57,471 bases of DNA from an uncultured Sphingomonadales bacterium (GTDB taxonomy: Bacteria; Pseudomonadota; Alphaproteobacteria; Sphingomonadales; Sphingomonadaceae), in NCBI GenBank assembly GCA_903848655.1, contig CAINGT010000098.1:1-57471 (forward strand), written 5' to 3'. The position numbers and the translations under genes are program-made. Under the pieces are notes generated by a model that searched no databases, had not been told where the DNA came from, and saw only the letters and a list, made by a program, of their open reading frames with translations. Shown piece after piece: positions 9,887 to 31,785 of the stretch (position 1 is its first letter; every line of letters begins with the position of its first letter).

Positions 9887-9915
9887 TCGTGCAGGGGTTG
9901 CAAGCGGAGGCTGGC

Positions 9916-11412
9916 ATGACGGGTATGGTCAAGCGGGTGGTCGTGGTCGGCGGGGGCACCGCCGGATGGATGGCGGCTGCGCTGATTGCCAAAGTGCTGG
10001 GCCGCCGGGTCAGCGTCGATCTGGTCGAATCCGAACAGATCGGCATTATCGGCGTGGGTGAGGCGACGATTCCGCCGATCCAGACGGTCAACGCGGTGCT
10101 CGGCATTGCCGAAGCCGATTTTCTGCGCGAAACCAAAGCCACGGTCAAATTGGCGATCCGGTTCGAAAACTGGGGCGCAGCCGGACAAAGCTATTACCAC
10201 ACATTTGGCGCGGCGGGCCGCAATCTGGCGTTTTGCAGCTTTCACCATTTCTGGACGCGCGTGCGCAGTCTGGGGATCGCGGTTGACTATTGGGATTGCG
10301 ATCTCAACTATCTGGCCGCTTGCGCGGGCAAATTCGCACCCACCACGGGCAATGATCCGATCTGGGACATGCCATACGCCTATCACTTTGATTCCGCGCT
10401 CTATGGCCAATTCTTGCGCCGCCATTGCGAAGCCAATGGGGTCCGGCGCACCGAGGGGCGCATCGCCGATGTCACGCGCTGCGCGCTGACCGGCGATATT
10501 GGCGCGGTCGTGCTCGAAGACGGGCGCACTATCGCGGGCGATCTGTTTATCGACTGTTCGGGCAGTCGCGGGCTGTTGATCCAGCAGGCGCTGCGCACGG
10601 GGTACGAAGACTGGGATCACTGGCTGCCCTGCGACCGGGCGATGGCGGTACCGTCCGAACGGTTTGCCACGACCGCGCTTTATACCCGTTCGATCGCGCA
10701 GTGCGCGGGCTGGCAATGGCGCATCCCCTTGCAGCACCGCAACGGCAATGGTCTGGTCTATTCGAGCCGTCACCTCAGCGATGATCGGGCGGCAGACGTG
10801 TTGCTGGGCAATCTCGATTCACCGGCGCTCGATGATCCGCGCGTGATCGCGTTCCGTACCGGGCGTGCGCGCCGTCAGTGGCACCGCAATGTCGTTGCCG
10901 TGGGTTTGTCGAGCGGGTTTCTCGAACCGCTGGAATCGACCAGCATCTATCTGATCCAGTCCGCCGTGGTGCGCCTGCTGCATCTGTTTCCGCACGGGCC
11001 GGACATGGCGGCGTTGCGCGATGACTACAACCGCCAGTCGCAATGCGAATACGAACTGATCCGCGATTTCATCATTCTGCATTACCACGCCAACCGGCGC
11101 GATGAGCCGTTTTGGCGCGATCTGGCCGCGATGCCGGTGCCCGACCGGCTGGCGCAGAAAATCGCGCTGTTCCGCGCCAGTGGCGCACTCATGCCCGACC
11201 AGCTTGATATCTTTATGGAATCGTCGAGGGTGCAAGTGCTGCTCGGCCAAAGTGTCGAGCCACGTGCGTGGCACCCGCTCGCCGACGCGCCGGGTGAGGA
11301 CGAATTGCGCCACCAATTCGCGCAAATGGCCGCGCTCAAGGCACAGCCGCTGGCGCATTTGCCGCGGCATGACGACTGGCTGGCGGCCACGATGGGCGCG
11401 GCGCGATCATGA
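9916..11412 (+). CDS. Tryptophan-halogenase-family flavoprotein (first of a pair)
   Basis: 498 residues of the FADH2-dependent halogenase family, cytoplasmic. The dinucleotide motif GGGTAGW is at residues 12-18. The catalytic lysine is expected at K78 (RETKATVKLAIRF). The halogenase signature WxWxIP is present as WQWRIP at 266-271, and the GFLEPLESTSIYLI segment keeps the conserved Glu-Ser pair. GGAGG (9906-9910) sits properly before ATG 9916. It overlaps the second halogenase by ATGA. Homologues beside TonB receptors in Caulobacterales and Xanthomonadales have poorly known roles. BrvH-type members halogenate indoles in vitro, but the natural substrate in sugar loci is unknown. Confidence 0.9.
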   Translation: MTGMVKRVVVVGGGTAGWMAAALIAKVLGRRVSVDLVESEQIGIIGVGEATIPPIQTVNAVLGIAEADFLRETKATVKLAIRFENWGAAGQSYYHTFGAAGRNLAFCSFHHFWTRVRSLGIAVDYWDCDLNYLAACAGKFAPTTGNDPIWDMPYAYHFDSALYGQFLRRHCEANGVRRTEGRIADVTRCALTGDIGAVVLEDGRTIAGDLFIDCSGSRGLLIQQALRTGYEDWDHWLPCDRAMAVPSERFATTALYTRSIAQCAGWQWRIPLQHRNGNGLVYSSRHLSDDRAADVLLGNLDSPALDDPRVIAFRTGRARRQWHRNVVAVGLSSGFLEPLESTSIYLIQSAVVRLLHLFPHGPDMAALRDDYNRQSQCEYELIRDFIILHYHANRRDEPFWRDLAAMPVPDRLAQKIALFRASGALMPDQLDIFMESSRVQVLLGQSVEPRAWHPLADAPGEDELRHQFAQMAALKAQPLAHLPRHDDWLAATMGAARS

Positions 11413-12896
11413 CGCCGGACCAGCGGCTGGTGATCGTGGGCGGCGGCACGGCAGGCTGGATGGCAGCCAACTTGCTTGCGCACCGCTGGCCGGATATGCC
11501 GATCACGCTGATCGAAACCTCGCACATCGGCACAATCGGCGTGGGCGAAGGTTCGACTCCGTCGCTCAAACGCTTTTTCGAGCGGATCGGCATTGCCGAA
11601 GCAGACTGGATGCCGCGCTGCAACGCGACGTGGAAAACCAATATCCGCTTTGCCGGATGGAGCCCGGATGCACCCGTACCCGATTACAGCCATCCGTTTC
11701 TGAGCCAGATCGATCTCCACACCACTGATGCCTTCATCAACAATTGCCGCAACCGCCGCCTTGGCCATGCGGTGCCCACCGCACCGGCGGAATTCCTGCT
11801 GAACGGGGTGCTGGCGTCCCAAGCCAAAGCTCCGCTGGCTCCGCCGCATTTTCCGTTTCGCATGGAATATGGCTATCATTTCGATGCCGGTCTGCTGGGC
11901 GAATTCTTGCGCGAAACCGCTATGGCGCGCGGCGTCGTCCACCGCGACGCGCGCATTGTCGATGCGGTCATGACCGAAACCGGCGATATTGCCGCCGTGC
12001 TGACCGATCACGGGCAGGCGTTTGCGGGCGATATGTTTTTCGACTGCAGCGGGTTTGCCGCCTTGCTGATCGGGGCCAAGCTGGGGGTGGGTTTTACCAG
12101 CTTTCGCGACAATCTGTTCAACGATGCCGCCGTCGTGCTGCCCACGCCGATGATCGGCACGCCGCCGGTCGAAACGCTCGCCACCGCGTTGTCGAGTGGG
12201 TGGTGCTGGTCGATCCCGCTGACCAACCGGTTTGGCAATGGCTATGTCTATAGCAGCGATCACCTTTCGGCGGATGCGGCAGAGGCCGAACTGCGCAAGC
12301 ATCTGGGCTGGTGCGATGCCAGCCAGCCCGCGCGCCACTTGCGCTTTGCGGTCGGGCAGCGCAACCGGCACTGGGCGGGCAATGTGTTGGCAGTCGGGCT
12401 GGCGCAAGGGTTCATCGAACCGCTGGAAGCGACCGCGCTGCATCTGGCGCTCGGCACGCTCGACATGTTCATGACCGCGTATGAACGCGGAGGATTTACG
12501 CGCCAATACGCCGATGATGTCAACGCGCGGATCAGCGACCGGATCGAGCGTGTGCGCGATTACATCGTCGCGCATTACACGCTCAACACCCGCACCGACA
12601 GCGCCTATTGGGGCGACAACCGCGCGCATGGCCAGTTGTCCGCGCCGCTGCGCCATATTCTCGATGTGTGGTACCGGCGCGGCGATCTGGGCGAAGAACT
12701 GGCGCGGCAACGCAACCTCAGTCATTTTGGCAACGAATCATGGCATTGCCTGCTGGCAGGCTATGGCGCGTTTCCCGCCGCCACTGCCCCGCGCGACGAT
12801 GCGGTTGATTTTCACGCCGCGCGCGGCATTGGCGCATTCCTGCATGGGTGCAGCCTGAATTTTCCCACGCACGCCGCCGCACTGGCGCAAGCATAA
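11409..12896 (+). CDS. Tryptophan-halogenase-family flavoprotein (second of a pair)
   Basis: 495 residues, translationally coupled to the first halogenase by a 4-nt ATGA overlap. The FAD motif GGGTAGWMAAN is at residues 11-21. The predicted catalytic lysine is K76 (CNATWKTNIRF), and the WxWxIP motif appears as WCWSIP. The conserved EPLEST segment reads EPLEAT here: the glutamate is kept but the serine next to the chloride site in PrnA/RebH-type enzymes is alanine. This may mean an altered halide site or a different reaction. The two proteins are clearly paralogous but diverged, so this is an old duplication rather than a recent tandem copy. Confidence 0.88.
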   Translation: MTPDQRLVIVGGGTAGWMAANLLAHRWPDMPITLIETSHIGTIGVGEGSTPSLKRFFERIGIAEADWMPRCNATWKTNIRFAGWSPDAPVPDYSHPFLSQIDLHTTDAFINNCRNRRLGHAVPTAPAEFLLNGVLASQAKAPLAPPHFPFRMEYGYHFDAGLLGEFLRETAMARGVVHRDARIVDAVMTETGDIAAVLTDHGQAFAGDMFFDCSGFAALLIGAKLGVGFTSFRDNLFNDAAVVLPTPMIGTPPVETLATALSSGWCWSIPLTNRFGNGYVYSSDHLSADAAEAELRKHLGWCDASQPARHLRFAVGQRNRHWAGNVLAVGLAQGFIEPLEATALHLALGTLDMFMTAYERGGFTRQYADDVNARISDRIERVRDYIVAHYTLNTRTDSAYWGDNRAHGQLSAPLRHILDVWYRRGDLGEELARQRNLSHFGNESWHCLLAGYGAFPAATAPRDDAVDFHAARGIGAFLHGCSLNFPTHAAALAQA

Positions 12897-12915
12897 GCAC
12901 AAAGGGTCAGTCGCT

Positions 12916-14625
12916 ATGGAAAAAACGGTTCTGCGGTTCGCGCTCGCGCTGGCGGGCGCACTGCTGCTGCCCGCAGCGGGCATGGCCAAGCCCGCCGCGC
13001 CCGCGCCGTGGTGGGCCCATGCGGTGATTTACGAGATCTATCCGCGCAGCTTTCAAGACAGCAATGGCGATGGCGTGGGTGATCTCAATGGGGTGACGGC
13101 GCGGCTCGACTATCTCAAAAGTCTGGGGGTCGATGCGATCTGGCTAACCCCGTTTTACCCGTCGCCCAATGCCGATTTCGGCTATGATGTCGCCGATTAT
13201 ACCAATGTCGCGCCGGAATATGGCACGCTTGCTGATTGGGACCGGCTGGTGACCGCCGCGCGCCAGCGCGGCATCCGTGTGCTGGTCGATTTCGTGCTCA
13301 ACCATTCGTCGTCCGAACACCCGTGGTTCAAGGCGGCGCGATCATCGCGCACCGATCCCAAGCGCGACTGGTATGTCTGGCGCGACCCCGCGCCTGATGG
13401 CGGGCCGCCAACCAACTGGCAGTCGATCTTTGGCGGATCGGCGTGGACGTTGGACCCGACGAGCGGGCAATACTACTATCATGTCTTCCTGCCCCAGCAG
13501 CCCGATCTCAACTGGCGCAACCCGCACGTGGTGCGCGCGATGCACGATGTCATGCGGTTCTGGCTGCGGCGCGGTGCCAGCGGGTTCCGGCTCGATGCCA
13601 CACCGTATCTGTTCGAGGATCCGGCCTGGCCGCAGGACCCAGACCCTGCAACGGGCGCGCCAGTCGGGCTGAAACCTTACAATTCCGGGCTACCGGACAA
13701 CCATCGCATAATGCGCGGGCTGCGCACCATCGTCGATCAGTGCCCCGATGGCTGCACACTGCTGGGCGAAAACGCGATTTCGACCATTCAGGATCTCGCC
13801 AAAGTCTATGGCGCGCGCCACGACGAGATCAATCTGCCGATGAATTTCCTCTACAGCGGGGTCAAAACGCTGGATGCGCAAACGTTCAAGGCGCGGATTG
13901 ATGATGCCCACACCCGGCTGAACGGTGCCCCGCCAGTACTGTTCTTCAGCAACCACGACACATCGCGTCAGGCAACGCGGCTGGGTGATGGTGTCCACAC
14001 CGATCCGATTGCGCGGCTGCTGGCGGCAATGACGCTGACATTGCGCGGCACCGCGCTGGTCTATTACGGCGAAGAACTGGGCATGACCGACTTGCCCAAG
14101 GATTTGCTGGCGGCAACGCCGCTCAGCCCCACGCGCAAGGTGGCGGACAACCGCGATCCCGAACGCAGCCCGATGCAATGGACCGCCGCGCCGAACGCCG
14201 GGTTTACCAGCGGCGCGCCGTGGTTGCCGGTGCACCCGGCGGCGGCGGGCAGCAATGTGGCGCTGCAACAGGCCGATCCCGGATCGCTCTGGCACTGGTA
14301 CCGGTCGCTGATCGCCTTGCGCCATGACAATGCGGCGGTGCGCGATGGCGCATATGTCCCGCTGGACTCGGGTAATCCCACAGTGCTGGCTTATGCGCGC
14401 CAGGATGCCAGCGGACACGGCGTGTTGGTGGTGCTGAATATGAGCGATGCGCCGCAGGCGGCCCGGATCAGCGGCTGGGTCGGCGCTGCGCCGGTGCCCG
14501 CGCACGTGATGCTGGCCAGTCCCCTGCAACCGGCACCAAACATTGCCGATCCTGTGCTCGCGCCGTTTGCGGTGCAGATCACCGCGTTCAACCCGAGGCT
14601 GGACGGATCGCTCAACCCGCGCTAA
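12916..14625 (+). CDS. Exported GH13 alpha-glucosidase/oligo-1,6-glucosidase-like enzyme
   Basis: 569 residues. The N-terminal signal peptide (LRFALALAGALLLPAAGMA) indicates export to the periplasm. The GH13 (beta/alpha)8 barrel starts at AVIYEIYPRSFQDSNGDGVG. The four conserved regions are visible: DFVLNHSS (about 125-132), GFRLDATPYLF with nucleophile D227, LLGENAIS with acid/base E285, and FSNHDTS with D348. It should release glucose from alpha-linked oligosaccharides brought in by the TonB receptor. It lies 19 bp after the second halogenase, in the same direction. Whether alpha-1,4 or alpha-1,6 linkages are preferred cannot be decided by eye. Confidence 0.92.
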   Translation: MEKTVLRFALALAGALLLPAAGMAKPAAPAPWWAHAVIYEIYPRSFQDSNGDGVGDLNGVTARLDYLKSLGVDAIWLTPFYPSPNADFGYDVADYTNVAPEYGTLADWDRLVTAARQRGIRVLVDFVLNHSSSEHPWFKAARSSRTDPKRDWYVWRDPAPDGGPPTNWQSIFGGSAWTLDPTSGQYYYHVFLPQQPDLNWRNPHVVRAMHDVMRFWLRRGASGFRLDATPYLFEDPAWPQDPDPATGAPVGLKPYNSGLPDNHRIMRGLRTIVDQCPDGCTLLGENAISTIQDLAKVYGARHDEINLPMNFLYSGVKTLDAQTFKARIDDAHTRLNGAPPVLFFSNHDTSRQATRLGDGVHTDPIARLLAAMTLTLRGTALVYYGEELGMTDLPKDLLAATPLSPTRKVADNRDPERSPMQWTAAPNAGFTSGAPWLPVHPAAAGSNVALQQADPGSLWHWYRSLIALRHDNAAVRDGAYVPLDSGNPTVLAYARQDASGHGVLVVLNMSDAPQAARISGWVGAAPVPAHVMLASPLQPAPNIADPVLAPFAVQITAFNPRLDGSLNPR

Positions 14626-20992: not shown

Positions 20993-22087
20993 TTAAAACA
21001 GCACCGTCGCACACGCCAATGCGATCAAAAAGCTGGCAACCGTGGCCGACAGCACCGGGACAGCCGCGCGCCAGCCCATTTGCAACAGCAAGTCCATGCG
21101 CGATCGCATTGCCGTCGCGGTTACCGCCATCAGCAGCAGCACTTTTGATCCGGTCAACGCCGCGTGGCTGGCGGGCAGGGGGAGCGTGATCGCACTGTTC
21201 AACGCCAGCACCACCAGAAACCCGGTGATGAACCAAGGCAGCGCCAAACGCCGCCAGATTGCCGGCGCGGCACCGCTGCCCTGAACATCGTCCATCCCGA
21301 ATGCCACGCTGGCCAATGCCACCAGCGGGGCAAGCAGCGCAACGCGGGCCAGCTTGATGATCGTGGCATAGCTGCCGGCGGCGTCGGAAAAGGCATAGCC
21401 GCCGCCAATCGCCTGCGCCACGTCATGGATCGACGCCCCGATCAGGAACCCGGCCTGGCGATCCGTCAGATGCAGTTCGGTTGCGAGCATGGGATAGACC
21501 GACATCGCCAGCGCGCTCGCGAGCGAAATGCCCACCAGCGTCAGCGCGAATTGCGCCTGATTCAACCGCTCTTTGCCGATCACGCCATAGAGCGCCAGCG
21601 CGGCGCTGGCTCCGCAGATCGCCGTCGCCCCCCCCGCCAGAATGCTGGCATAGCGCGATTGCCCGGCGATCCTTCCGCCTGCGATGGCGGCAAGGAACGC
21701 CGCCAGCATGACCCCCAGCAGCGCCACAAACGGCAGTGCGCCCAGCGCGCCGATTTGCGCCAGCGTGACTTGCAACCCCAGCAGCACGATGCCCAGCCGC
21801 AGACAGGTGCGCGAGGCAAAGTCGAGCCCGCGATGGGTGCGCGGATCTTGCGCGATGAAATTGAGCGACAGCCCGATCAACAGCCCCAGCAGGATGATCG
21901 GAAAGTGGTAATGGTCCGCCAGCCAGGCCGCCGCGGCCGCGCCGACGCTGCACACTGCAAGGCCCGGAAACAGTGGCGCGGGTGCGGCCTTGCCAGGTGC
22001 GGGCGCCGTTTCGGCCAAGTGGATTTCGCCATAGAGATCACCGCCATGGGGCCATGCATCCCAATCGATCGCTTTGCCCTTTGTCAT
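20993..22087 (-). CDS. YeiH/CuyZ-family (COG2855, UPF0324) transporter, probable sulfite exporter
   Basis: 364 residues with about ten hydrophobic segments and the family core (FPIILLGLLIGLSLNFIA, LGIVLLGLQVTLAQIG, SILAGGATAICGASAALAL, GFLIGASIHDVAQAIGGGYA). This family is annotated as putative sulfate exporter. One member, CuyZ, was proposed to export sulfite released in cysteate degradation. It lies divergent from an MFS permease, and their 158-bp intergenic region carries the 22-nt motif also found before the sulfoquinovosidase and TonB receptor. The inferred role here is removal of toxic sulfite from sulfoquinovose desulfonation. Family assignment is firm; cargo is inferred. Confidence 0.85.
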   Translation of the reverse strand: MTKGKAIDWDAWPHGGDLYGEIHLAETAPAPGKAAPAPLFPGLAVCSVGAAAAAWLADHYHFPIILLGLLIGLSLNFIAQDPRTHRGLDFASRTCLRLGIVLLGLQVTLAQIGALGALPFVALLGVMLAAFLAAIAGGRIAGQSRYASILAGGATAICGASAALALYGVIGKERLNQAQFALTLVGISLASALAMSVYPMLATELHLTDRQAGFLIGASIHDVAQAIGGGYAFSDAAGSYATIIKLARVALLAPLVALASVAFGMDDVQGSGAAPAIWRRLALPWFITGFLVVLALNSAITLPLPASHAALTGSKVLLLMAVTATAMRSRMDLLLQMGWRAAVPVLSATVASFLIALACATVLF

Positions 22088-22147
22088 CCTGCCGTGCCCC
22101 TAGCGGAATCTGGCGCATGATACGATCAGAAGGAATCGCATCAGCTT

Positions 22148-22169
22148 TATGTCCCCCGGTGTCATAAGC
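22148..22169 (-). promoter_or_regulatory. Candidate operator of the sulfoquinovose regulon (copy 1)
   Basis: Read on the reverse strand it is GCTTATGACACCG, 3 nt, GACATA. It matches the forward-strand site at 29294-29315 at 19 of 22 positions (all but the 3-nt spacer). The motif is an imperfect palindrome (TATGACA facing GACATA). It lies 61 bp before yeiH and 77 bp before the MFS gene. The likely binder is the LacI protein encoded at 26213-27226. Confidence 0.65.
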
Positions 22170-22245
22170 CTTTCCTTATCCCGGTGACGCGTTACTGTGC
22201 AAGGCAGAAGCGCGCGGGCGTCCGAATTCATGCCGGGAGATTGTG

Positions 22246-23502
22246 ATGGGTGGAGGCGGGAATGGCAGCGGCAATGCCGTTGAAACGGCGGCAGACCGCG
22301 CCAGTCGGCGGCTGATGATCGCGCTGGTGGCGTTGCTGTTCGTTGGCAACGCGCTCAACTATGTCGATCGGCAAGTGCTCGCGCTGCTGAAACCCACGCT
22401 CGAAGCCGAATTCCACTGGACCGATGCCGATTATGCGCACCTGGGATCATCGTTCCAGATTGCGGCGGCGGCGGCGCTGTTGTTCGTCGGCTGGTTCGTT
22501 GATCGGCTGGGAGTGCGGATCGCCTATGGCGTGGCGGTTGCCACGTGGAGCATGGCGGGTATGGCACATGCGCTGGCCTCGACAATGCGCCAATTCGTGG
22601 CCGCGCGCATCGTGCTGGCAGTCGGCGAATCGGTCAGCACTCCGGCCGGGCTAAAGGCCGCTACGCTTTATTTGCCGGCGCGCCAGCGCAATATCGCCAT
22701 CGGACTGGTCAACACCGCTCCCAATATCGGCGCGATCATGACACCCTTGCTGATCCCGCCGTTTGCGCTGGCATTCGGCTGGAAGGCGGCATTTGTCGTG
22801 ACCGGCAGCTTGGGTTTTGCTTGGCTGATCGGCTGGCTGGCGGCCACGCGCAAGCTGAAACCTGTGGGCAACATGCCTGAACGCGCCAAAGTCGAATGGG
22901 GCGTGCTGCTGGGTGACCGCCGTACTTGGGCGGTGATCGGGGCCAAGGCGCTGACCGATTGCGTCTGGTGGTTCGTGCTGTTCTGGATGCCCGATTTCTT
23001 CAACCGCCAGTTCGCGATGAGCCAGGGCGCGATTGGCTGGCCGATTGCGATCATCTTTTCGCTGGCAGCGCTCGGCGCGTTGACCTCGGGCGCGATCTAT
23101 CCGCTGCTGCTGTCGCGCGGATGGACGGTCAATGCCGCGCGCAAGTCATCGATGCTGCTTTACGCACTCGTAGTCATGGCCATGCCGCTGGCGCTGGCGG
23201 TCAACAGCCCGTGGATCGCCGCGATGCTGATCGGGATGGGCCTGTTTGCGCATCAGGGATTTTCGACCAATATCCTTGGCATGACCACCGATATCGTGCC
23301 CGGCGTGCGCGTGGCCAGCGTGATCGCGCTGGGCGCGGTGGCGGGCAACCTGTCGGGCACCGCGATTATCGAACTGGCCGGCTGGTCACTCGGCAACGGC
23401 CACGGCTATATCCCGATGTTCGCCATCTGCGGCACCGCATATCTGGCCGCACTCGGCTTTATCCAGCTGGTCCTGCCCCGGCTTGAGCTTGCCAACGCGT
23501 GA
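22246..23502 (+). CDS. MFS permease (anion:cation symporter/hexuronate-like), candidate SQ or SQ-glycerol importer
   Basis: 418 residues with twelve predicted membrane segments. The start RRLMIALVALLFVGNALNYV and the loop GWFVDRLGVRIAYG, with VGESVSTPAGLKAATLYLPA after it, are typical of the ACS family that brings in hexuronates and other acidic sugars with protons or sodium. ATG 22246 is preferred over GTG 22243 because GGGAGA lies about 7 nt before it. It shares its promoter region and the 22-nt operator candidate with yeiH. An acidic-sugar permease is a sensible importer for sulfoquinovose or its glyceride, but the substrate is inferred from context. Confidence 0.82.
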   Translation: MGGGGNGSGNAVETAADRASRRLMIALVALLFVGNALNYVDRQVLALLKPTLEAEFHWTDADYAHLGSSFQIAAAAALLFVGWFVDRLGVRIAYGVAVATWSMAGMAHALASTMRQFVAARIVLAVGESVSTPAGLKAATLYLPARQRNIAIGLVNTAPNIGAIMTPLLIPPFALAFGWKAAFVVTGSLGFAWLIGWLAATRKLKPVGNMPERAKVEWGVLLGDRRTWAVIGAKALTDCVWWFVLFWMPDFFNRQFAMSQGAIGWPIAIIFSLAALGALTSGAIYPLLLSRGWTVNAARKSSMLLYALVVMAMPLALAVNSPWIAAMLIGMGLFAHQGFSTNILGMTTDIVPGVRVASVIALGAVAGNLSGTAIIELAGWSLGNGHGYIPMFAICGTAYLAALGFIQLVLPRLELANA

Positions 23503-23634: not shown

Positions 23635-23650
23635 GTATGTAGCTACATAC
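23635..23650. promoter_or_regulatory. Perfect 16-nt palindrome in front of brnT (candidate BrnA operator)
   Basis: GTATGTAGCTACATAC is perfectly self-complementary and ends 7 nt before the brnT start codon. BrnA antitoxins are known to repress their own operon by binding palindromes at the promoter. There is no clear Shine-Dalgarno sequence between the palindrome and the ATG, so the mRNA may be nearly leaderless. Confidence 0.6.
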
Positions 23651-23657
23651 TATCGGC

Positions 23658-23921
23658 ATGGCGATTGAGTTTGATCCGGAAAAGGATGCAGCAAACATTG
23701 CCAAGCATGGCTTTTCGCTGGCCGACGCCGGAATGCTCGACCTCCCTAACTCGGCGGTGATGATCGATGGGCGAAGTGACTATGGCGAAGTGCGGTATCG
23801 CGCGTTCGGCCGGATTGAAGGCGAAGGCTATTGCCTGGCCTTCGCATTGCGGGGAACGGTGCTTCGGCCGATCAGCTTTCGCCGCGCGCATGACAAGGAG
23901 ATGAAGCGGTATGGCAAATAA
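23658..23921 (+). CDS. brnT: BrnT-family type II toxin (RelE-like ribonuclease)
   Basis: 87 residues, the normal BrnT (DUF497) length. It starts with the hallmark EFDPEKDAANIAKHGFSLAD and ends FRRAHDKEMKRYGK, where the conserved Arg and His/Lys region of the family lies. BrnT toxins are RelE-fold RNases that block translation. The gene overlaps brnA by 11 bp, toxin first, as is usual for this system. It sits between the MFS permease and the oxygenase end of the sulfoquinovose operon, with which it has no obvious functional link. Confidence 0.9.
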   Translation: MAIEFDPEKDAANIAKHGFSLADAGMLDLPNSAVMIDGRSDYGEVRYRAFGRIEGEGYCLAFALRGTVLRPISFRRAHDKEMKRYGK

Positions 23922-24177
23922 TCCCGTCGTCTTTGATGACGACAACCCTGAATGGACAGCAGAGGATTTCGCCAGGGCGCAAGCCGGAAGCGACGTGCTG
24001 CCGCCTGAATTCCTCAAAGCGTTCAAGCGCGCGCCCGGCCGACCAAAGGGCTCTACCACTTCCAACAAGTCGCTGGTGTCGTTGCGTCTTGACAATGACG
24101 TGCTGGAAAAATTCAGGGCGATGGGGCCGGGGTGGCAGTCCCGAATGAATGATGCGTTGCGCAAGGCGGTCGGCTAG
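23911..24177 (+). CDS. brnA: BrnA-family antitoxin
   Basis: 88 residues. The N-terminal region is acidic and binds the toxin (DDDNPEWTAEDFARAQ), followed by a Lys/Arg linker (KRAPGRPKGS) and a C-terminal ribbon-helix-helix-like DNA-binding part (VSLRLDNDVLEKFRAMGPGW). This is the DUF4415/BrnA pattern. It neutralises BrnT and is expected to repress the operon through the palindrome at 23635-23650. It converges with the monooxygenase gene, with 27 bp between. Confidence 0.9.
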   Translation: MANNPVVFDDDNPEWTAEDFARAQAGSDVLPPEFLKAFKRAPGRPKGSTTSNKSLVSLRLDNDVLEKFRAMGPGWQSRMNDALRKAVG

Positions 24178-24204: not shown

Positions 24205-25305
24205 TCACACCTCCAGCGGGCCGTGGGCGATGTGCGGCAGGACGTGGCGGGCGAACAAGTCGGCTTCTTGCGCGTGGGGGTATCCGGACAGGATGAACGC
24301 TTCGATCCCTTCGGCCTGATAGGCGCGCAGTTTCGCCAGCACCTGATCGGGGGTGCCGACAATCGCCGCGCCGCAGCCCGACCGCGCGCGCCCGATGCCG
24401 GTCCACAAGTTGGCTTCGACAAAGCCGTCGCCATCGGCGGCCCCGCGCAATTCGGCCTGACGCCGCACGCCATAATTCATCGCATCGAGCGATTGTTCGC
24501 GGATCGCCTTGCCCGCCGCATCATCGAGTTTTGACAGCAGCCGGTCGGCATAGAGCCGCGCTTCGTCCTCGGTTTCGCGCACGATCACGTGGGCGCGATA
24601 GCCGAATTTCAGCGTGCGCCCGAACCGGGCGGCGCGCGCTGTCATGTCGGCGATGATCGCGCGCATATTGTCCATCGTATCGGGCCACATCAGATAGACA
24701 TCGGCGCCTTGGGCGGCACATTCGCGCGCATCGTGGCTCAATCCGCCAAAATAGAACGCGGGGCACTGACCCGAAATGGTGGTGATGCGCGGCGGATCGA
24801 GTTTAAGCCGGTAAAACTCGCCCTGATGATCCAGCGCTTCGCCGTTGAGCAAGGCGCGCACGATCATCATCACTTCAGTCGCGCGGGCATAGCGTGCGGG
24901 CGATGTGATGGTTTCGCCCGGCATGTCGGATGAAATGATATTGACGTTAAGCCGCCCCGCCGTGCCCGCCGCATTCGGCCCCAGAATGCGGTCGAGCGTG
25001 GCAATGCGCCGCGCCAGTTGCGGGGGCCAGTCTTCGCCGATCCGCGTTGCCCACAACAGCTTGATCCGGCGCACCAGCGGCGCGACCGCTGCGGCAAAGG
25101 CGGTGGTATCAAGGCCCAGGCTATAGCCCGATGGCAGCAGGATATTGTCGAATCCGCCTTCTTCGGCGCGCAACACGATATTGCGGCAATGTTCCCAGCT
25201 TGATCGCAGCGCCGGGTCGGGGACGCCGAGAAATTCATAATCATCATCGCACAGCGCCGAAAACCAGGCGATCTCGCATGACTGTGCTGCGTCGTTGTCG
25301 GTCAT
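24205..25305 (-). CDS. SsuD-like flavin-dependent sulfonate monooxygenase, candidate SQ monooxygenase (SmoC-like)
   Basis: 366 residues of the two-component FMNH2-dependent luciferase-like family, closest by eye to alkanesulfonate monooxygenase SsuD: PAFYFGGLSHDARECAAQGA and FGYRAHVIVRETEDEA align directly. The SsuD catalytic and sulfonate-binding positions appear conserved as R237 and H239 (GYRAHV), R308 (IGRARSGCG) and Y342 (LSGYPH). In the Agrobacterium sulfo-SMO pathway the homologue SmoC converts sulfoquinovose to 6-oxo-glucose and sulfite. Here it is the last gene of an operon starting with a sulfoquinovosidase. The start at 25305 overlaps the reductase stop (ATGA). The obligatory flavin reductase is not encoded in the window. 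Confidence 0.87.
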   Translation of the reverse strand: MTDNDAAQSCEIAWFSALCDDDYEFLGVPDPALRSSWEHCRNIVLRAEEGGFDNILLPSGYSLGLDTTAFAAAVAPLVRRIKLLWATRIGEDWPPQLARRIATLDRILGPNAAGTAGRLNVNIISSDMPGETITSPARYARATEVMMIVRALLNGEALDHQGEFYRLKLDPPRITTISGQCPAFYFGGLSHDARECAAQGADVYLMWPDTMDNMRAIIADMTARAARFGRTLKFGYRAHVIVRETEDEARLYADRLLSKLDDAAGKAIREQSLDAMNYGVRRQAELRGAADGDGFVEANLWTGIGRARSGCGAAIVGTPDQVLAKLRAYQAEGIEAFILSGYPHAQEADLFARHVLPHIAHGPLEV

Positions 25306-26216
25306 GGCAGTTTCTCCCCCCGCGCGGCGACGAACACCGCGTACCATTGCGTGCGCGACCATGGCACCGCCATCGCCGCCACCGCTTCGGTGATGCGCGC
25401 CGGATTTTGCGAACCGATGATCGGGATAATGCCCGCCGGATGCGCCATCAGCCAGCTATAGGCGGCCACCGTGCGGCTGATCCCGAGCGGGCCGGCCACG
25501 GCATCGAGCGCCGCCGCGACCGCGATCTCGCGCGGCGACACTGGCGCGGCAATCCGCCCGCCACCCAGCGGCGACCATGCCAGCGGGGTCAGGCCCAGCA
25601 GCATCGCCTGATCGAGTTCGCCATTTTCGCAACAGGCGATTCGCAACGCGCTGATTTCGGGCTGGGTGGTCGCCAGCTTGTGCCCCAGAAAATGGTCGAG
25701 CGCGGCAGTCTGATGCACGGTAAAGTTCGACACGCCCAGCGCGCGGATCTTGCCCGCAACAACCGCATCATCCAGCACACGCGCCACTTCGTGCGGGTGC
25801 GCCAGAATATCGGGGCGATGGATCTGCCACAGATCGATGCAATCCACCCCCAACCGGCGCAGCGAGGCATCGATCGCGCGGTGCAGATAATCGGCGCTTT
25901 GATCGTAAGGCAGCGGCGGCAGAATTCCGCCTTTGGTGGCCAGCACAAAGCGCTGGCGCAAGGTGGGCTCGGCGCGTAGCACATCGCCCAGCAGCGTTTC
26001 GGCATCGCCAAACCCGGTTGTGCCGTCAAACCCGTAAATATCCGCCGTGTCGAGCAAGCTGATGCCGGCATCGAGTGCGGTGTGCACCAGATGCGCCGCT
26101 TCGCGCGCGGTGCGCCCGTCTTCGGCCAGCCGCCACATCCCCCAGGCAAGCGGCGATACGGTCAGCGCAGAGCGCCCAAGCGGGCGACTGGCAGGGGGCA
26201 AGGGCAGCAAACTCAT
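25302..26216 (-). CDS. Aldo/keto reductase, candidate 6-oxo-glucose reductase (SmoB-like)
   Basis: 304 residues. The AKR catalytic tetrad is visible as D56 and Y61 (LLDTADIYG), K95 (LATKGG) and H133 (WQIHRPD). The NADPH-binding C-terminal region includes LAWSPLGGGRI and IIPIIGSQNPARI. In the sulfo-SMO pathway SmoB, an AKR, reduces 6-oxo-glucose to glucose. The gene is joined by 4-nt ATGA overlaps to the LacI gene before it and the monooxygenase after it, a strong sign that the three act in one pathway. Other sugar-aldehyde substrates cannot be excluded from sequence alone. Confidence 0.87.
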   Translation of the reverse strand: MSLLPLPPASRPLGRSALTVSPLAWGMWRLAEDGRTAREAAHLVHTALDAGISLLDTADIYGFDGTTGFGDAETLLGDVLRAEPTLRQRFVLATKGGILPPLPYDQSADYLHRAIDASLRRLGVDCIDLWQIHRPDILAHPHEVARVLDDAVVAGKIRALGVSNFTVHQTAALDHFLGHKLATTQPEISALRIACCENGELDQAMLLGLTPLAWSPLGGGRIAAPVSPREIAVAAALDAVAGPLGISRTVAAYSWLMAHPAGIIPIIGSQNPARITEAVAAMAVPWSRTQWYAVFVAARGEKLP

Positions 26217-27226
26217 CGTGTCATCCTGTATGGGGGCGCAACCGAGGCGCGTTCGATCAACACATGCGGCAGGCGGCGATGCGCAATATCGCCGCCCTGA
26301 ATAAGAATTTCGGTCGCGGTGCGCGCCAGTTCGGCCATCGGCTGATGGATCGTGGTCAAAGCGGGCCAGACCGTGCGCGCCAGCGTGGTGTCATCAAACC
26401 CTGCCACCGACAATTGATCGGGCAGCGTCAGCCCGCGTCCATGCGCCACCGCCAGCACCCCGGCCGCCATTTCATCGTTGGCGGCAAAGATTGCGCTGGG
26501 CGGATCGTCCAGATCGAGCAGCCGGTTGCCGGCCGCCATGCCGCTTTCCAGATCGAACGCGCCGGCCATGACCAGATGCGGTTCAAACGCGATCCCCGCC
26601 CGATCAAGCGCGCGGCGATAGCCGAACAGCCGATCATCGCTGGCCATGTGGCTGGGATGACCCTTGATAAACCCGATGCGCCGATGGCCAAGATTGATAA
26701 GGTGCGTGGTCATGTCATCGGCGGCTTGCGCATCGTCCATGAACACCGACGATGTCAGCGCATGGTTGGTGCCGGGCGAAATCCGCACGAACGGAATATC
26801 GAGCGCATCGAGCGCGCGCAGCACCGCCGCACAATCGGTGACCGGCGATGACAGCACGATGCCATCGACATGCGTTTCGCTGACCAGCCCGCGCACTTGT
26901 TCGCCGACATCGGGATCGGCCACATCGACCGGCTGCGCGATCAGGCGAATGCCCAGCGCCTTGCAACAATCCCAGCATCCGGACTGGATCTGGAACATGT
27001 AATAAGGGCTGTGGTTGTCATAAATCAGCGCGATCTGGTTCGATTTCGATCCCGACAGAATGCGCGCGGCCACGCTGGGATGATATTCCAGATCGTGCAT
27101 CGCGCGTTCGACTTTTTCGCGCATTGGCGCGCTGACATAAGGATGGCCGTTGAGCACGCGGCTAACGGTCTTGACAGCGACGCCCGCGCGCGCGGCGACA
27201 TCGCGGATATTGGCGCGTTCGCTCAT
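26213..27226 (-). CDS. LacI-family regulator, candidate sulfoquinovose-responsive repressor
   Basis: 337 residues. The N-terminal helix-turn-helix NIRDVAARAGVAVKTVSRVL and the hinge are followed by a sugar-sensor domain (ALIYDNHSPYYMFQIQSGCW, LGHRRIGFIKGH, LSVAGFDDTTLARTVWPALT). The start at 27226 overlaps the sulfoquinovosidase stop (ATGA), so it is the second gene of the four-gene operon. The longer frame to 27367 lacks family similarity. It most likely controls this locus through the 22-nt near-palindromes at 22148-22169 and 29294-29315. The inducer (SQ, SQ-glycerol or 6-oxo-glucose) is unknown. Confidence 0.88.
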   Translation of the reverse strand: MSERANIRDVAARAGVAVKTVSRVLNGHPYVSAPMREKVERAMHDLEYHPSVAARILSGSKSNQIALIYDNHSPYYMFQIQSGCWDCCKALGIRLIAQPVDVADPDVGEQVRGLVSETHVDGIVLSSPVTDCAAVLRALDALDIPFVRISPGTNHALTSSVFMDDAQAADDMTTHLINLGHRRIGFIKGHPSHMASDDRLFGYRRALDRAGIAFEPHLVMAGAFDLESGMAAGNRLLDLDDPPSAIFAANDEMAAGVLAVAHGRGLTLPDQLSVAGFDDTTLARTVWPALTTIHQPMAELARTATEILIQGGDIAHRRLPHVLIERASVAPPYRMTR

Positions 27227-29223
27227 TGCGCGATTGTTTCGGGCAAGCGGGCAAACAGGTCGGCAAAGGCGCTGTCCGGGCGATAGAACACCGGCGGCTG
27301 GCCGATTGGCGCGGCGATGGCGTGGGTGCCGGGCGGATAATCGCGCCCGGTCCACACGTGCCGCCACTCGGCATCACCGGGCAGGATCACCACGCGTTCG
27401 ACCGCGCCTTCGTCGATCACCGGCGCGACCAGCAGATCGGCACCGTACAAGAATTGGTCCTGCACCGCATAGAGCGCGCGGTCAGCGGGATAATGCAGAA
27501 ACAGCGCGCGTTGCGCGGGCAGGCCATCGGCCACCGCCTCTGCGCACACGTGGCGGGTATAGGGCGCGAGATGGGCATGAACCCGGCTCCACCGGGCAAA
27601 AGCGGCAAGCAATTCGGGGGTGCTGTCATATTGCAGATTGTCGTCGGGCCGGTTGCCTTCATGGCTGCGCATGACCGGGGCAAACGCGGCGAGTTCGCAC
27701 CAGCGCTGCAGCAATTCGGCGCTGCGCACATTGCCATGCAGCGAGGTATAGCCACCACAATCGGAATGGCTGAAACTGTTGCCGACCAGCCCTGCCGACA
27801 GCGCGGCGGTGATGACCGTGCCGATGCCGTCATGGCGGGTAAAATCGACCGACTGATCGCCCGCCCACAGCAGCGGGCAATAGCGCGAAACGCCCGAAAA
27901 TCCGGCGCGCATGAAAAACAGCGCATCACCCTGCCGCCCCCGCAGCGCCAGCGCGCGGTCGTTGACGTGCGCCCACAGCACGGGCCAGCGATTGTGCGCC
28001 TCCATCGCGTCAATCCCGCTGGCCAGCCGCACATCGGTAGGCAGATATTCGCCGAAATCGGCCATCCAGCCATCGATGCCGATATCGATCATTTCCTGCA
28101 CGAGGATCCGAGCCGCAAACCATTCGCACGTTTCCTCGCGCGTGAAATCGACCACTCCGCAGTCAAATTCGCCGAAATCCACGCGATAGACGGCATCGCT
28201 GTCCTGCCGCAGACACAAATGATTGCCCGCCAGCGCTTCGGCATAGAGTGCGCCGTCAACTGCGAGATAGGGGTTGGCATAAGCCAGAAACCGGATGCCG
28301 CGCGCATGGAGCGCGCGGATACGATCGGGCAGGCCGGGGTAGCGCGCGGGGCTGTAGCGCCAATCCCAGAACAATCGGCGGCCAAAGCTGGTTTCGCGAA
28401 TCCCGGCCCAGTCTTCGCACCACAGCGCCGATACTGCGGCCCCGGCGGCGATGAATTGGTCAAGCCGGGCAAAACTGGCCTCGCCTTGCTTCAACCCGAT
28501 GATCGCGCCGCCGATGGCCCAATCGGGCAAGGCGCGCGGGCGGCCGAAATTTGCGGACAACTGCCCCACCAGTTCGCGCGGCCCGGCTGCGGCAAACACG
28601 TCAAAACCGGCGCTGCCCGCCCAGACTTCGCAAACATGGTGCGCCGGATCGGTAAAATCGAGCACACTGTAACACGTCGTGCGGCAATGGATGGCCAGCC
28701 AGCGCGATGTCAGGAATGTCGGCTGCGGGTAATTGGTGGTCCAGTAATCGCCCCCGGCCATGCCGGTTTCGTCCATGATCTGCGTCAGCGCGGTCGATTT
28801 GTCGCGCCCCACGCCCGGCTCGCTGGTCCACATCGGAAATCTGCGGCCATTGAGCGCAAAATAGCTCATCTGTTCGCCGCCGCCCCACACCGTTTCACCC
28901 GGATCGGCATGGAACCGCAGCCACACCCGGTCACACGCCGGATTTAGCGCGGTGACTTCGAAACCAGCGTCATTCCATGCGATCGCCGCGACCGCTGCGC
29001 CCCCTTCGGTAAAGACCACCCGATCCTGTTCGCGATACCACTGCCGGGGGGTGACCAGCGAATGCGGGGCATCGTCGATGCGGAAATTGCCGCGCAGCAT
29101 GGTCACATCGCTGCGGCCTTGGCCGATGGTCAGCACCGGATGCGACGGGCTGTGGCGCAGCACCGTTTGCCCCGCGATGGTCAGCGCGAATCCTGCCTCG
29201 ACGACTGAAAACCCGACTTTCAT
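27223..29223 (-). CDS. smoI: GH31 sulfoquinovosidase (YihQ/SmoI-like)
   Basis: 666 residues, similar to E. coli YihQ along its length (MLRGNFRIDD; PMWTSEPGVGRDK; FGEFDCGVVDFT; MRSHEGNRPDDN; APIGQPPVFYRP). The nucleophile is D389 in GWMADFGEYLPTDV and the acid/base is D456 in LLWAGDQSVDF. The sulfonate pocket reads K245 (IIGLKQG), E270 (LWCEDWAG), R283 and W286 (GRRLFWDW). This is the KERW form of the sulfoquinovosidase signature seen in Agrobacterium SmoI, where E. coli has Q, Q, R, W. There is no signal peptide, so SQ-glycerol is probably cleaved in the cytoplasm. ATG 29223 is chosen because family homology begins there, not at 29289. First gene of the operon; divergent from a TonB receptor. 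Confidence 0.92.
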   Translation of the reverse strand: MKVGFSVVEAGFALTIAGQTVLRHSPSHPVLTIGQGRSDVTMLRGNFRIDDAPHSLVTPRQWYREQDRVVFTEGGAAVAAIAWNDAGFEVTALNPACDRVWLRFHADPGETVWGGGEQMSYFALNGRRFPMWTSEPGVGRDKSTALTQIMDETGMAGGDYWTTNYPQPTFLTSRWLAIHCRTTCYSVLDFTDPAHHVCEVWAGSAGFDVFAAAGPRELVGQLSANFGRPRALPDWAIGGAIIGLKQGEASFARLDQFIAAGAAVSALWCEDWAGIRETSFGRRLFWDWRYSPARYPGLPDRIRALHARGIRFLAYANPYLAVDGALYAEALAGNHLCLRQDSDAVYRVDFGEFDCGVVDFTREETCEWFAARILVQEMIDIGIDGWMADFGEYLPTDVRLASGIDAMEAHNRWPVLWAHVNDRALALRGRQGDALFFMRAGFSGVSRYCPLLWAGDQSVDFTRHDGIGTVITAALSAGLVGNSFSHSDCGGYTSLHGNVRSAELLQRWCELAAFAPVMRSHEGNRPDDNLQYDSTPELLAAFARWSRVHAHLAPYTRHVCAEAVADGLPAQRALFLHYPADRALYAVQDQFLYGADLLVAPVIDEGAVERVVILPGDAEWRHVWTGRDYPPGTHAIAAPIGQPPVFYRPDSAFADLFARLPETIAQ

Positions 29224-29293: not shown

Positions 29294-29315
29294 GCTTATG
29301 ACACCGATTGACATA
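29294..29315 (+). promoter_or_regulatory. Candidate operator of the sulfoquinovose regulon (copy 2)
   Basis: GCTTATGACACCG, then ATT, then GACATA, matching the site at 22148-22169 (reverse strand) at 19 of 22 positions. The inner part TATGACA-CCGAT-TGACATA is a 7+5+7 inverted repeat with one mismatch. It lies 71 bp before the sulfoquinovosidase and 107 bp before the TonB receptor. A consensus -35 hexamer TTGACA (29308-29313, pointing to the receptor) is inside it, so binding would block that promoter. Confidence 0.7.
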
Positions 29316-29421: not shown

Positions 29422-31785
29422 ATGAAATCAACACACTACGCACTTTTGTCGCTGCCGTTGCTGGCTCTGGCCAGCGCTTCCGCATGGGCCGCAGATGCGC
29501 CGCCCGCAGATTCGCAGGCCCCCGCCGAAATCATCGTGACCGCGCAAAAACGGTCCGAGCCGCTGCAAAAAGTGCCCGTGTCCATCACTGTGGTGTCGGG
29601 CGATGCGATGGCGCGGCTGTCAACCAACAATATCGAAGATACGCAACGCCTTGTCCCGGCGCTGACATTCGTCAAAGGAACCACCAGCCTCAATTCGGCG
29701 CTGTTTCTGCGCGGGCTGGGCACGGTCAGCTTTTCGATTGCCGCCGAACCGAGCGTGACCAGCGTGCTCGATGGCGTGGTACTGGCGCGCGCGGGCGAAA
29801 GCTTTGGCGATCTTTATGACATTGATCGCGTTGAAGTGCTGCGTGGCCCGCAGGGTACGTTGTTCGGCAAGAATGCTTCGGCCGGGGTCATCAATATCGT
29901 GACCAAAGAGCCGGGCAAGACGCTGGGCGGGTACCTCGACATCGGCGCGTTCGAAGGCGGCGAATACAAAGCAAAGGCCAGCCTCGGCGGACCGATCGGC
30001 GACAACTGGCGCGCCGGGGTGACCGCGTTCTACAGCGAATACAAAGGCAATATTTCAGACGCGACCCTCGGAACCAAGATCAACGGTTACAAGCATTATG
30101 GTGTGCGCGGCCAAGTGATCGGCGATGTGACCGAAAACCTGCGGGTCAAGCTGATTGCCGATTATCGCAAGGGTGATGACCAATGCTGCGCCTTTGTCGT
30201 CGGCGCGCTCAATCCGAACCCGGTTGCCAGCCAATCGGCGGCGCAATTGGCAATCCAGAGCATTCTGCCACCCGCGCTGGGCGGGGCCACGCGTCAAAGC
30301 ATCCAGTCGATGGCCAACCGCACGGTCGAAGAGACTTATGGCGTATCGCTTCAGGCTGATCTTAAGCTGGGCACTCATACGCTGACGTCGATCACATCGT
30401 GGCGGAAATGGGACAATCGGGAAATCCGCGATGGCGACTGGGTGGATCAGGTCTACCTGACCAATCCGCTGATCCATGACGATGGCCCGGAAGGCGCGCA
30501 TACCTTTACGCAGGAACTGCGCCTGGCATCACCCACGGGCGGTTTCGTCGATTATGTCGCCGGTGCGTTTTATTATCAGGCAGTGGCACAGCGCACCTAT
30601 ACCCGCTCGGATACGTATTGCACCGCGACCACGGCAGCCAAGCTGGCCAATGGCCTGACCCCGTGCCCGGCCGCCTTGTCAACGCTGGTCAATCCGGTCG
30701 GGACTGCGGTGTTCGGATCGACATTCGACAATATCGCCGCTTATGGTCAGGCGACGTGGCATTTTGCGCCGACATTCCGCGCGGTGACCGGCTTGCGCTA
30801 TACTCATGACAAAGTTTCTGCGTTTCATTCGCGCAACAGCAACTTTGCCGGGATCGCCGGCCCGGCGGGGATTGGTGACAGCTTTGATGCCAATGTCGCC
30901 ACGGGCGGCACGTACAATGGCACGCCGTGGACTGGTGAAACCAGCGCCGACAGCCTGTCGGGCAAATTTGCCCTGCAATATGATATCGCGCCCAATAATA
31001 TGCTGTATTCCAGCTATTCGCGCGGATATAAAGGCCCGGCCTTCAACGTATTTTTCAATATGTCAAAGGCCAATATTTTGCCGATTTCGGCAGAAACGTC
31101 CAATGCTTTTGAAGTCGGGCTAAAAAACAGCTTTAATAACGGCCGGTTGATTGTGAACGTTGGCGGGTTTTACACCAAAGTTTATAACTATCAGGCCAAT
31201 TACCCGACAACAGTCAATGGCACGGTAACGACGACGATCATCAACGCGGGCAACGTGTCCACCCGCGGCGGTGAAATCGAAGTGCTGTTCCGTCCGATCC
31301 GGCAATTGACCATCAATGGCGGCTACAGCTACACCGACGCCCACGTCGATCAGTTTCTGCAGCCGCCTGCTGCGCAAGCGTCCAACTATATCACGCCCGG
31401 CACGCCTTTGGCCTTTGCGCCGAAGAACAAGGGCACGCTGGGCGGGACATATTCGGCTGAACTGCCAGGCCTGCCCTTCGCGCTCGAATTCAATGCGCTG
31501 GCTTCGTACACAGATCGGCAGGTCTCGACACTGGCTGCGACCAACAATGCTTCGCAAATCCTGGCCTTCGACAGCCAGACGCTGAAGGCTTATACACAAG
31601 TTGATCTCAGTTTGGCCGCAGTCGATCTGGCCAAGCATTATCGCTTGGCGGTGGTTGTCAAAAACCTGCTGAACAATCACTACGCCTCAACCATCGGCTC
31701 GGGCGGTCCGGGCGGATCCTATCTCTACCAGATCCCGCGCGACTCTGATCGCTATTGGGGTGTGACCTTGCGCTATTCGTTCTGA
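29422..31785 (+). CDS. TonB-dependent outer-membrane receptor, candidate SQ-glycerol/SQ transporter
   Basis: 787 residues. The signal peptide is STHYALLSLPLLALASASAW and a TonB-box-like AEIIVTAQKRSEPLQ follows. The plug is typical (VPVSITVVSGDAMARL, IDRVEVLRGPQGTLFGKNAS, GVINIVTKEP). The barrel ends in the aromatic strand YWGVTLRYSF. ATG 29422 is preferred over 29407 because GGGGAGG (29410-29416) is correctly placed before it. It is divergent from the sulfoquinovosidase operon and shares its operator region, so the cargo is likely a sulfoquinovosyl compound. The family alone would allow many other substrates. Confidence 0.88.
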   Translation: MKSTHYALLSLPLLALASASAWAADAPPADSQAPAEIIVTAQKRSEPLQKVPVSITVVSGDAMARLSTNNIEDTQRLVPALTFVKGTTSLNSALFLRGLGTVSFSIAAEPSVTSVLDGVVLARAGESFGDLYDIDRVEVLRGPQGTLFGKNASAGVINIVTKEPGKTLGGYLDIGAFEGGEYKAKASLGGPIGDNWRAGVTAFYSEYKGNISDATLGTKINGYKHYGVRGQVIGDVTENLRVKLIADYRKGDDQCCAFVVGALNPNPVASQSAAQLAIQSILPPALGGATRQSIQSMANRTVEETYGVSLQADLKLGTHTLTSITSWRKWDNREIRDGDWVDQVYLTNPLIHDDGPEGAHTFTQELRLASPTGGFVDYVAGAFYYQAVAQRTYTRSDTYCTATTAAKLANGLTPCPAALSTLVNPVGTAVFGSTFDNIAAYGQATWHFAPTFRAVTGLRYTHDKVSAFHSRNSNFAGIAGPAGIGDSFDANVATGGTYNGTPWTGETSADSLSGKFALQYDIAPNNMLYSSYSRGYKGPAFNVFFNMSKANILPISAETSNAFEVGLKNSFNNGRLIVNVGGFYTKVYNYQANYPTTVNGTVTTTIINAGNVSTRGGEIEVLFRPIRQLTINGGYSYTDAHVDQFLQPPAAQASNYITPGTPLAFAPKNKGTLGGTYSAELPGLPFALEFNALASYTDRQVSTLAATNNASQILAFDSQTLKAYTQVDLSLAAVDLAKHYRLAVVVKNLLNNHYASTIGSGGPGGSYLYQIPRDSDRYWGVTLRYSF

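Follow-up and report, generated by a model that had tools for sequence, protein, structure and literature searches.

This analysis concerns a DNA stretch of 57,471 nucleotides from an uncultured Sphingomonadales bacterium of the Sphingomonadaceae (contig CAINGT010000098.1, positions 1 to 57,471), referred to as the window at its full length, and a predicted sulfoquinovosidase (SQase) gene in it with its neighbours. Sulfoquinovose (SQ), the sugar of the plant sulfolipid, is produced at about 10 billion tonnes per year (PMC10755693), and the bacteria that consume it in mangrove and freshwater samples include Novosphingobium (PMC13372026). The genes and features of the locus are as follows, MFS standing for major facilitator superfamily.

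27223..29223, minus strand: GH31 sulfoquinovosidase (SQase, smoI/yihQ type), 666 amino acids, ATG start
28366..28491, minus strand: codons of the sulfonate-pocket residues K245, E270, R283 and W286, inside the SQase gene
26213..27226, minus strand: LacI-family regulator, 337 amino acids (Pfam PF00356/PF13377), its ATG overlapping the SQase stop codon (ATGA)
25302..26216, minus strand: SmoB/SquF-like aldo-keto reductase, candidate 6-dehydroglucose reductase, 304 amino acids (PDB 7bbz, E 1.8e-49)
24205..25305, minus strand: SmoC/SquD-like protein, candidate FMNH2-dependent SQ monooxygenase, 366 amino acids (PDB 7olf, E 2.5e-109)
29422..31785, plus strand: TonB-dependent receptor, open frame from 29407 (plug PF07715, 2.6e-17; barrel PF00593, 7.8e-45)
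22243..23502, plus strand: MFS carrier, candidate inner-membrane importer, nearest NCBIfam TIGR00893, below cut-off
20993..22087, minus strand: YeiH/PSE-family (PF03601) membrane protein, candidate sulfite exporter, divergent from the MFS gene
29297..29315, minus strand: operator-like site A, TATGTCAATCGGTGTCATA, in the SQase/receptor intergenic region
22148..22166, plus strand: operator-like site B, TATGTCCCCCGGTGTCATA, in the 155-bp YeiH/MFS intergenic region

The start of the SmoB-like gene overlaps the stop of the LacI gene, and the start of the SmoC-like gene that of the SmoB-like gene, by the same ATGA, which is thus found at three junctions. The receptor gene is divergent from the SQase gene, the MFS and YeiH-family genes lie beyond the SmoC-like gene, and an antisense open frame is also present on the plus strand of 27223-29223. 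A sequence-only reading made beforehand had given the position of the SQase gene correctly, left its strand (minus) unstated and missed the operon and the locus around it.

Judged by its sequence, the product is a GH31 sulfoquinovosidase. The best matches in the PDB are the Agrobacterium enzyme AtSQase, also named SmoI (5ohy, E 2.4e-230; 5ohs, E 9.7e-230), followed by 8r56, 6pnr and YihQ, all of them SQases, while the next GH31 enzyme follows at E 2.8e-38; in bit scores of this search, the SQases reach 581-770 and the closest other GH31 enzyme 135. Both GH31 domains were found (barrel PF01055, 3e-36; C-terminal PF21365, 2.4e-18), and the NCBIfam model NF007746 scores 854.9 bits with a cut-off of 553, which lies well outside what chance would give. 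The window protein shares about 50% identity, the K-E-R-W numbers, the catalytic pair and the fold with AtSQase (PDB 5ohs, 5ohy, 7ofx; 5ohs and 7ofx are titled as D455N mutants). The residues K245, E270, R283, W286, D389 and D456, which the sequence-only reading had named, are present in the translated gene. Its statement that SmoI carries K-E-R-W at the same numbers was right, since the alignment with 5ohs and 5ohy is free of gaps across query residues 106 to 344 and the pocket residues are therefore numbered identically; D389 and D456 correspond to AtSQase 388 and 455, after one gap. In E. coli YihQ (from NC_000913), the four pocket positions align to Q262, Q288, R301 and W304, the Q-Q-R-W set claimed for it, the intact catalytic pair to D405 and D472, and the likewise intact Y492 to Y508. 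R283, W286, D389, D456 and Y492 are invariant across 19 aligned sequences, and we take the K/Q, E/Q, Arg, Trp and Tyr positions to bind the sulfonate, as is reported for YihQ and AtSQase.

The predicted structure points in the same direction. The ligand-free model, built from an input of 18 sequences, has a mean pLDDT of 84.6 and a pTM of 0.87, with values below 50 in the loops 136-147, 156-164 and 493-496. Its best matches are AtSQase chains (TM 0.94, VIA Z 49.4), with the other SQases at Z 47-48 and the first non-SQase GH31 enzyme at Z 36.4, which no other GH31 enzyme among the matches listed exceeds; among the 50 matches listed, SQases have TM values of 0.90-0.94 as opposed to at most 0.72 for other GH31 enzymes. 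A leader was not seen by eye, aided by a hydrophobicity window, in the N-termini of the window protein and 75 relatives, whose start codons were chosen by homology, and together with the operon setting beside SmoB- and SmoC-type genes this supports the cytoplasmic location that had been proposed.

Both pocket classes reportedly exist and bind the sulfonate (Abayakoon et al. 2018). An alignment of both, as the sequence-only reading had suggested, was made with 138 sequences, consisting of the window protein, YihQ and those of 136 loci: 129 are K-E-R-W, six Q-Q-R-W, two Q-Q-Q-W and one partial, the latter (L107) being unreadable, and K-Q or Q-E mixtures were found in none of the 138. A smaller count of 76 sequences gave 67, five, two and two, respectively. 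In a FastTree phylogeny rooted on the two Q-Q-Q-W sequences, K-E-R-W (129) and Q-Q-R-W (6) form distinct clades with support values of 0.90 and 0.89. The relatives were chosen by similarity to the window protein, and Alphaproteobacteria therefore dominate this census. A tie of the K-E pair to the monooxygenase pathway was considered and rejected, as K-E-R-W enzymes also occur in loci with a TauD-type dioxygenase and in loci with an ATP-binding cassette (ABC) importer. YihQ itself is homologous to the window enzyme and differs in its Q-Q-R-W pocket, the sulfoglycolysis genes, ompL and yihO. The Q-Q-Q-W sequences (L122:9041-11257 and L123:3019-5265) are SQase-like GH31 proteins in which the sulfonate Arg is replaced by Gln, with an N-terminus that seems membrane-spanning by eye; they probably differ in specificity or location. 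In the genome G007 (locus L107), the SQase is present in two separate pieces, the larger of them at two contig places.

The operon SQase-LacI-SmoB-SmoC is, in terms of its gene families, a sulfo-SMO/ASMO locus. The sequences of 7bbz and 7olf agree with the reductase and the monooxygenase of the Agrobacterium tumefaciens SQase locus L201, and we take them to be the Agrobacterium-type SmoB and SmoC, although both are named otherwise in the PDB. General SsuD was rejected as the nearest match of the monooxygenase, as the SsuD-type 7jv3 scores far lower (E 1.1e-56) than 7olf. The sulfo-ASMO cluster of Novosphingobium aromaticivorans DSM 12444, reportedly described by Liu et al. 2021, is alike in having a YihQ-type SQase, an SQ monooxygenase and an aldo-keto reductase without SsuE, and the enzymes of its pathway have been produced and characterised (PMC9594981). 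In PMC13372026, a sulfo-SMO pathway is assigned where a SmoC-type monooxygenase and a SmoB-type reductase occur together, and the window locus holds both. A. tumefaciens L201, in contrast, has an ABC importer with a binding protein and a flavin reductase, where the window has the TonB-dependent receptor and the MFS carrier.

This gene set is widespread in the family. GH31 SQases were found in 61 of 397 family genomes, compared with 4 of 385 in the class and 16 of 398 in the phylum, each count including the genome of the window. SQase, receptor, LacI, SmoB and SmoC stand together in 46 of the 60 family loci L049-L108, counted by reading. For a wider count, 137 non-redundant SQase loci were used, from which 13 near-identical ones had been removed and L070, L106, L108, L153, L180 and L199 left out (SQase frame partial or missed by the caller). 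The families near the SQase are the receptor (100), LacI (94), SmoC (93), SmoB (91), MFS (80), YeiH (60), GlpD (53), FMN_red (38), FGGY kinase (27) and a molybdenum oxidoreductase of sulfite-oxidase type (23). These counts are approximate, as the in-house gene caller misses single genes, such as SmoB in L125, and the families are named by Pfam from one or two representatives. The glycerol genes in these relatives point to SQ-glycerol as the substrate; in the genome of the window, GlpD and FGGY-kinase relatives lie side by side, elsewhere than in the locus. The sulfite-oxidase-type family would, by its assignment, be an alternative sulfite sink. It occurs, for example, in L159, L132 and L172, where the L159 member (PF00174) adjoins a DHBP-synthase-family gene, and no match to it was found in the genome of the window in a search made without a positive control.

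The receptor family is linked to SQ loci beyond those with a GH31 SQase. Relatives of it (E <=1e-110) are present in 109 of 397 family genomes, taken to be the set in which the GH31 SQases were counted, namely in 56 of the 61 with a GH31 SQase and in 53 of the 336 without, and in 52 of the 56 genomes the best relative lies within 6 kb of the GH31 SQase. The idea that the receptor is exclusive to genomes with a GH31 SQase was therefore rejected, and the other 53 genomes are mostly explained by loci with a candidate SQase of family GH188. Such a candidate was found within 8 kb of the receptor in 44 of 56 further stretches (17 of 20 in L227-L246, 27 of the remaining 36), weak matches of 28-29% in L276 and L281 being left out; the 56 stretches are those examined of 57 other receptor places, the missing one being a second receptor place in G007. 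Taken together, 96 of the 109 genomes have a receptor relative close to an SQase or SQase candidate, of family GH31 in 52 of them and of family GH188 in 44. The candidate in L227, the only one compared with the PDB, has its best matches in FlSqgA 8QC2 (4e-102) and ArSqgA 8QC3 (7e-101), both named as GH188 SQases in PMC10755693, and the other candidates match the L227 protein at 66-87%. GH188 SQases (SqgA) have an NAD+-dependent fold unrelated to GH31 (PMC10755693); none is present in the window, and no GH188 candidate was found in any of the loci L049-L226. In other Sphingomonadaceae, the candidates stand where the GH31 SQase stands here, close to a receptor of this family and in most cases together with SmoB/SmoC genes, so that the change from GH31 to GH188 is, going by the family assignments, a swap of unrelated enzymes. 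Transport of SQ glycosides is accordingly proposed as a candidate function of the receptor by linkage.

The strongest competing explanation, to which we give roughly one chance in four, accepts the SQase as genuine and holds that the receptor and the MFS protein carry something else, such as a neutral glycoside or free SQ only, while SQ-glycerol enters through porins. SQ-glycerol is small enough for porins, ompL adjoins yihO-yihQ in E. coli, sphingomonads are rich in receptors (14 to 211 first-look candidates per listed genome, not all of them necessarily receptors), and six receptor relatives lie outside SQ loci. On the other hand, a receptor of this family is kept at the locus even where a GH188 candidate replaces the GH31 SQase, and in GH31 loci, receptor and SQase mostly have a divergent promoter and an operator-like site in common (67 of 145 sites).

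The operator-like sites A and B are imperfect inverted repeats, TATGTCA-N5-TGTCATA at site A and with the left arm TATGTCC at site B. A first count of palindromes gave a mere hint of a motif, and a palindrome-constrained motif search in 92 SQase-upstream regions, all from loci with a LacI-family gene, yielded TATGTCAAGCGGTGTCA. In the training sample itself, the motif scores above 10 in 78 of the 92 regions compared with none of 92 shuffles. Its core is nearly invariant over 77 aligned sites, the region of L189 with a full-scoring site at its edge being left out of the alignment. The window contains an exact match to the pattern TATGTCAAKCGNTGTCA at 29299-29315 and another with three mismatches at 22148-22164, and both sites extend to CGGTGTCATAAGC. 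Independent of the training, 25 divergent YeiH/MFS intergenic regions, including that of the window, were compared with TATGTCAAGCGGTGTCA: 15 have three mismatches, seven have four, two have five and one has seven, so that 22 of 25 contain a match with at most four mismatches, as opposed to none of 250 dinucleotide shuffles, five of which reach five mismatches. In the 2.95-Mb genome assembly, the core TGTCNNNCGGTGTCA is matched exactly at two places and no others, namely the SQase/receptor and the YeiH/MFS promoters. Across the 137 loci, TGTCNNNCGKTGTCA gives 145 sites, of which 67 are at SQase/receptor promoters, 24 at YeiH/MFS promoters and others at single members of these pairs (YeiH 18, SQase 8, MFS 7, receptor 6); a few are at GlpD, FMN_red or SmoB, five have no gene start nearby and one has unnamed genes only. 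The presence of a site also follows the LacI protein: taking the best LacI in each stretch and excluding the window, a site is found in 83 of 85 loci with at least 69% identity, in 2 of 24 with 40-69% and in 2 of 83 with none or less than 40%, which would be expected of a regulator and its operator.

Another reading to be weighed is that YeiH and MFS are neighbours with no relation to the rest of the locus and that the motif found at both places is a promoter element of a general kind; we regard it as improbable, more so than uptake through porins. A BrnT/BrnA pair parts the MFS gene from the SmoC-like gene in the window, the motif halves resemble a -35 box in our own reading, and the trained motif catches few MFS promoters (scores above 10 in 5 of 74 MFS-upstream regions), the last because the two kinds of site have different spacers behind TGTC. 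Against this, just two exact core matches occur in 2.95 Mb, both at the SQase locus, 24 of 25 YeiH/MFS intergenic regions have at most five mismatches compared with 5 of 250 shuffles, and the motif follows the identity of the LacI protein. That the cytoplasmic enzyme is a neutral alpha-glucosidase, or is now without specificity for SQ, is rejected as very improbable: many GH31 members are alpha-glucosidases and the NCBIfam name of NF007746 is still 'alpha-glucosidase', but every residue of the sulfonate pocket is present, the gene sits in a SmoB/SmoC operon and SQases rank above the other GH31 enzymes among the matches listed in the sequence and fold searches.

The DNA itself shows the enzyme family with its residues, the order and the overlaps of the genes, both operator-like sites with their conservation alongside LacI, and the linkage of the receptor family to SQ loci. 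The following scheme would build on these features, with the reactions of SQase, SmoB and SmoC taken from the named families. The receptor would carry an SQ-glycoside over the outer membrane and the MFS carrier would move it over the inner membrane; the view that the glycoside is imported whole, part of the sequence-only reading, thereby gains indirect support from a receptor and a carrier in one locus with a shared operator-like site. In the cytoplasm, the SQase would hydrolyse alpha-SQ glycosides, of which sulfoquinovosyl glycerol is the most likely substrate and would yield SQ and glycerol. The enzyme would use the retaining mechanism of GH31, D389 acting as the nucleophile and D456 as the acid/base, while K245, E270, R283, W286 and Y492 would form the sulfonate pocket. 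SmoC would convert SQ with reduced flavin and O2 to sulfite and 6-dehydroglucose, which SmoB would reduce to glucose; desulfonation by SmoC and aldehyde reduction by SmoB are reviewed in PMC9594981 and PMC12890257. A general reductase would supply the reduced flavin, which is also the presumption for N. aromaticivorans (PMC9594981). The YeiH-family protein (PF03601 176.2 bits, cut-off 24.5) would expel the sulfite. In Salmonella, yeiH is needed for resistance to sulfite stress and its function is otherwise poorly known (PMC12880088); the window protein is of the same family type, with a proposed link to sulfite of intracellular origin, released by SmoC. The LacI-type protein would repress both divergent promoters via TATGTC-N3-CGGTGTCATA until an SQ compound is present.

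Our confidence is high that a cytoplasmic K-E-R-W SQase stands here in a sulfo-SMO operon, for which uptake by receptor and MFS carrier, sulfite export by a YeiH-family protein and control by LacI are predicted. The wider proposal, in which the Sphingomonadaceae have a dedicated SQ-glycoside receptor that LacI controls together with an importer of the MFS type and a sulfite exporter of the YeiH family, and in which the uptake module is constant while the SQase swaps between GH31 and GH188, is put forward with moderate confidence.

Several results weigh against these proposals. A flavin reductase (SmoA/SsuE), which is usual although not required for the assignment, is absent among the cluster genes, and the FMN_red type of the relatives had no match in the genome of the window, in a search without a positive control; two flavin reductase genes (PF01613) are present in this genome on other contigs. 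Of the 56 further receptor stretches, six (L237, L242, L244, L270, L276, L281) contain no SQ genes detectable with the queries used and six others (L251, L258, L268, L274, L277, L282) are cut by contig ends. The operator core is missing from all of the first 20 stretches, in which LacI relatives, where found, are 61-67% identical. Among the SQase-upstream regions, 14 of 92 score below 10, and the low count at MFS promoters mentioned above belongs here as well. For TATGTCAAKCGNTGTCA with three mismatches, the expected number of matches in the window is 0.42, and at least two occur in 4 of 100 shuffles, while TGTCNNNCGGTGTCA with one mismatch has 19 matches in the genome compared with 4 for a reversed control, so that weaker sites cannot be judged. 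The conservation of motif and LacI is partly due to common descent. With TIGR00698, the YeiH-family protein reaches 110.2 bits (cut-off 232.6), for which reason it is called a YeiH family relative and not YeiH, and the MFS carrier reaches 140.3 bits with TIGR00893 (cut-off 395).

Some further observations concern the surroundings of the locus and its variants. The BrnT/BrnA toxin-antitoxin pair (PF04365, PF14384; 23658-23921 and 23911-24177, plus strand) lies between the MFS and SmoC-like genes; L125 and L126, which are the closest relatives, have no such pair at this place in their gene lists, and tblastn listed no match to it in L049-L123. An open frame of 173 amino acids opposite this pair (23643-24164, minus strand) was rejected as a flavin reductase, having no Pfam or NCBIfam match. 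In the window and in L125, the YeiH/MFS pair (20993-23502) is located beyond SmoC, while most loci with both genes have it, judged by eye, on the side of the receptor, a difference which indicates that the module has moved within the locus. Further away, a LacI-type regulator, a receptor plug protein, two tryptophan-halogenase-family proteins and an alpha-amylase follow in a row (4484-14625), which looks like an alpha-glucan utilisation locus of sphingomonads.

Other K-E-R-W loci differ in their gene content. A second kind (L090, L099, L100, L103, L109) combines the receptor with an AMP-binding, acyl-CoA synthetase-like enzyme and, except in L103, with GlpD, FAD oxidase and FGGY kinase families, a gene content that points to acylated sulfolipid being used. 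L103 and L099 contain a PhyH-type dioxygenase family. In L084, L097, L101, L102 and L104, the genes beside the SQase are a SmoB-like reductase and a member of a family that is represented in L101 by a TauD-type dioxygenase (PF02668), which looks like the dioxygenase (sulfo-ASDO) route in Sphingomonadaceae, a route assigned to Gammaproteobacteria in PMC12890257. In L195 (Elstera litoralis), a K-E-R-W SQase has an EDD-type dehydratase and a protein of the TauE family as its neighbours; the reference of the Elstera sequence in PMC13372026, perhaps another species than that of L195, is given there as without a canonical SQ cluster.

Enzyme and pathway are already known, also in Novosphingobium. 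In the available parts of PMC9594981, PMC12890257, PMC13372026 and PMC10755693, the word 'TonB' does not occur in the main text and the uptake of SQ glycosides together with the disposal of sulfite in these Gram-negative bacteria is not treated, and no title or abstract opening in the sulfoquinovose literature searched concerns an SQ receptor or an operator of an oxidative SQ pathway. The assignment of receptor, carrier, exporter and operator may nevertheless be partly in print already, for instance the receptor in Liu et al. 2021. If the proposal is true, this would be, as far as the literature searched extends, the first named outer-membrane receptor for SQ and the first operator of an oxidative SQ pathway, and the locus offers a concrete candidate receptor, carrier, exporter and operator in one culturable genus. 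For the Sphingomonadaceae, it would mean a widely shared gene set with which the bacteria probably import the sugar, remove its sulfur and export the toxic sulfite under the control of one switch.

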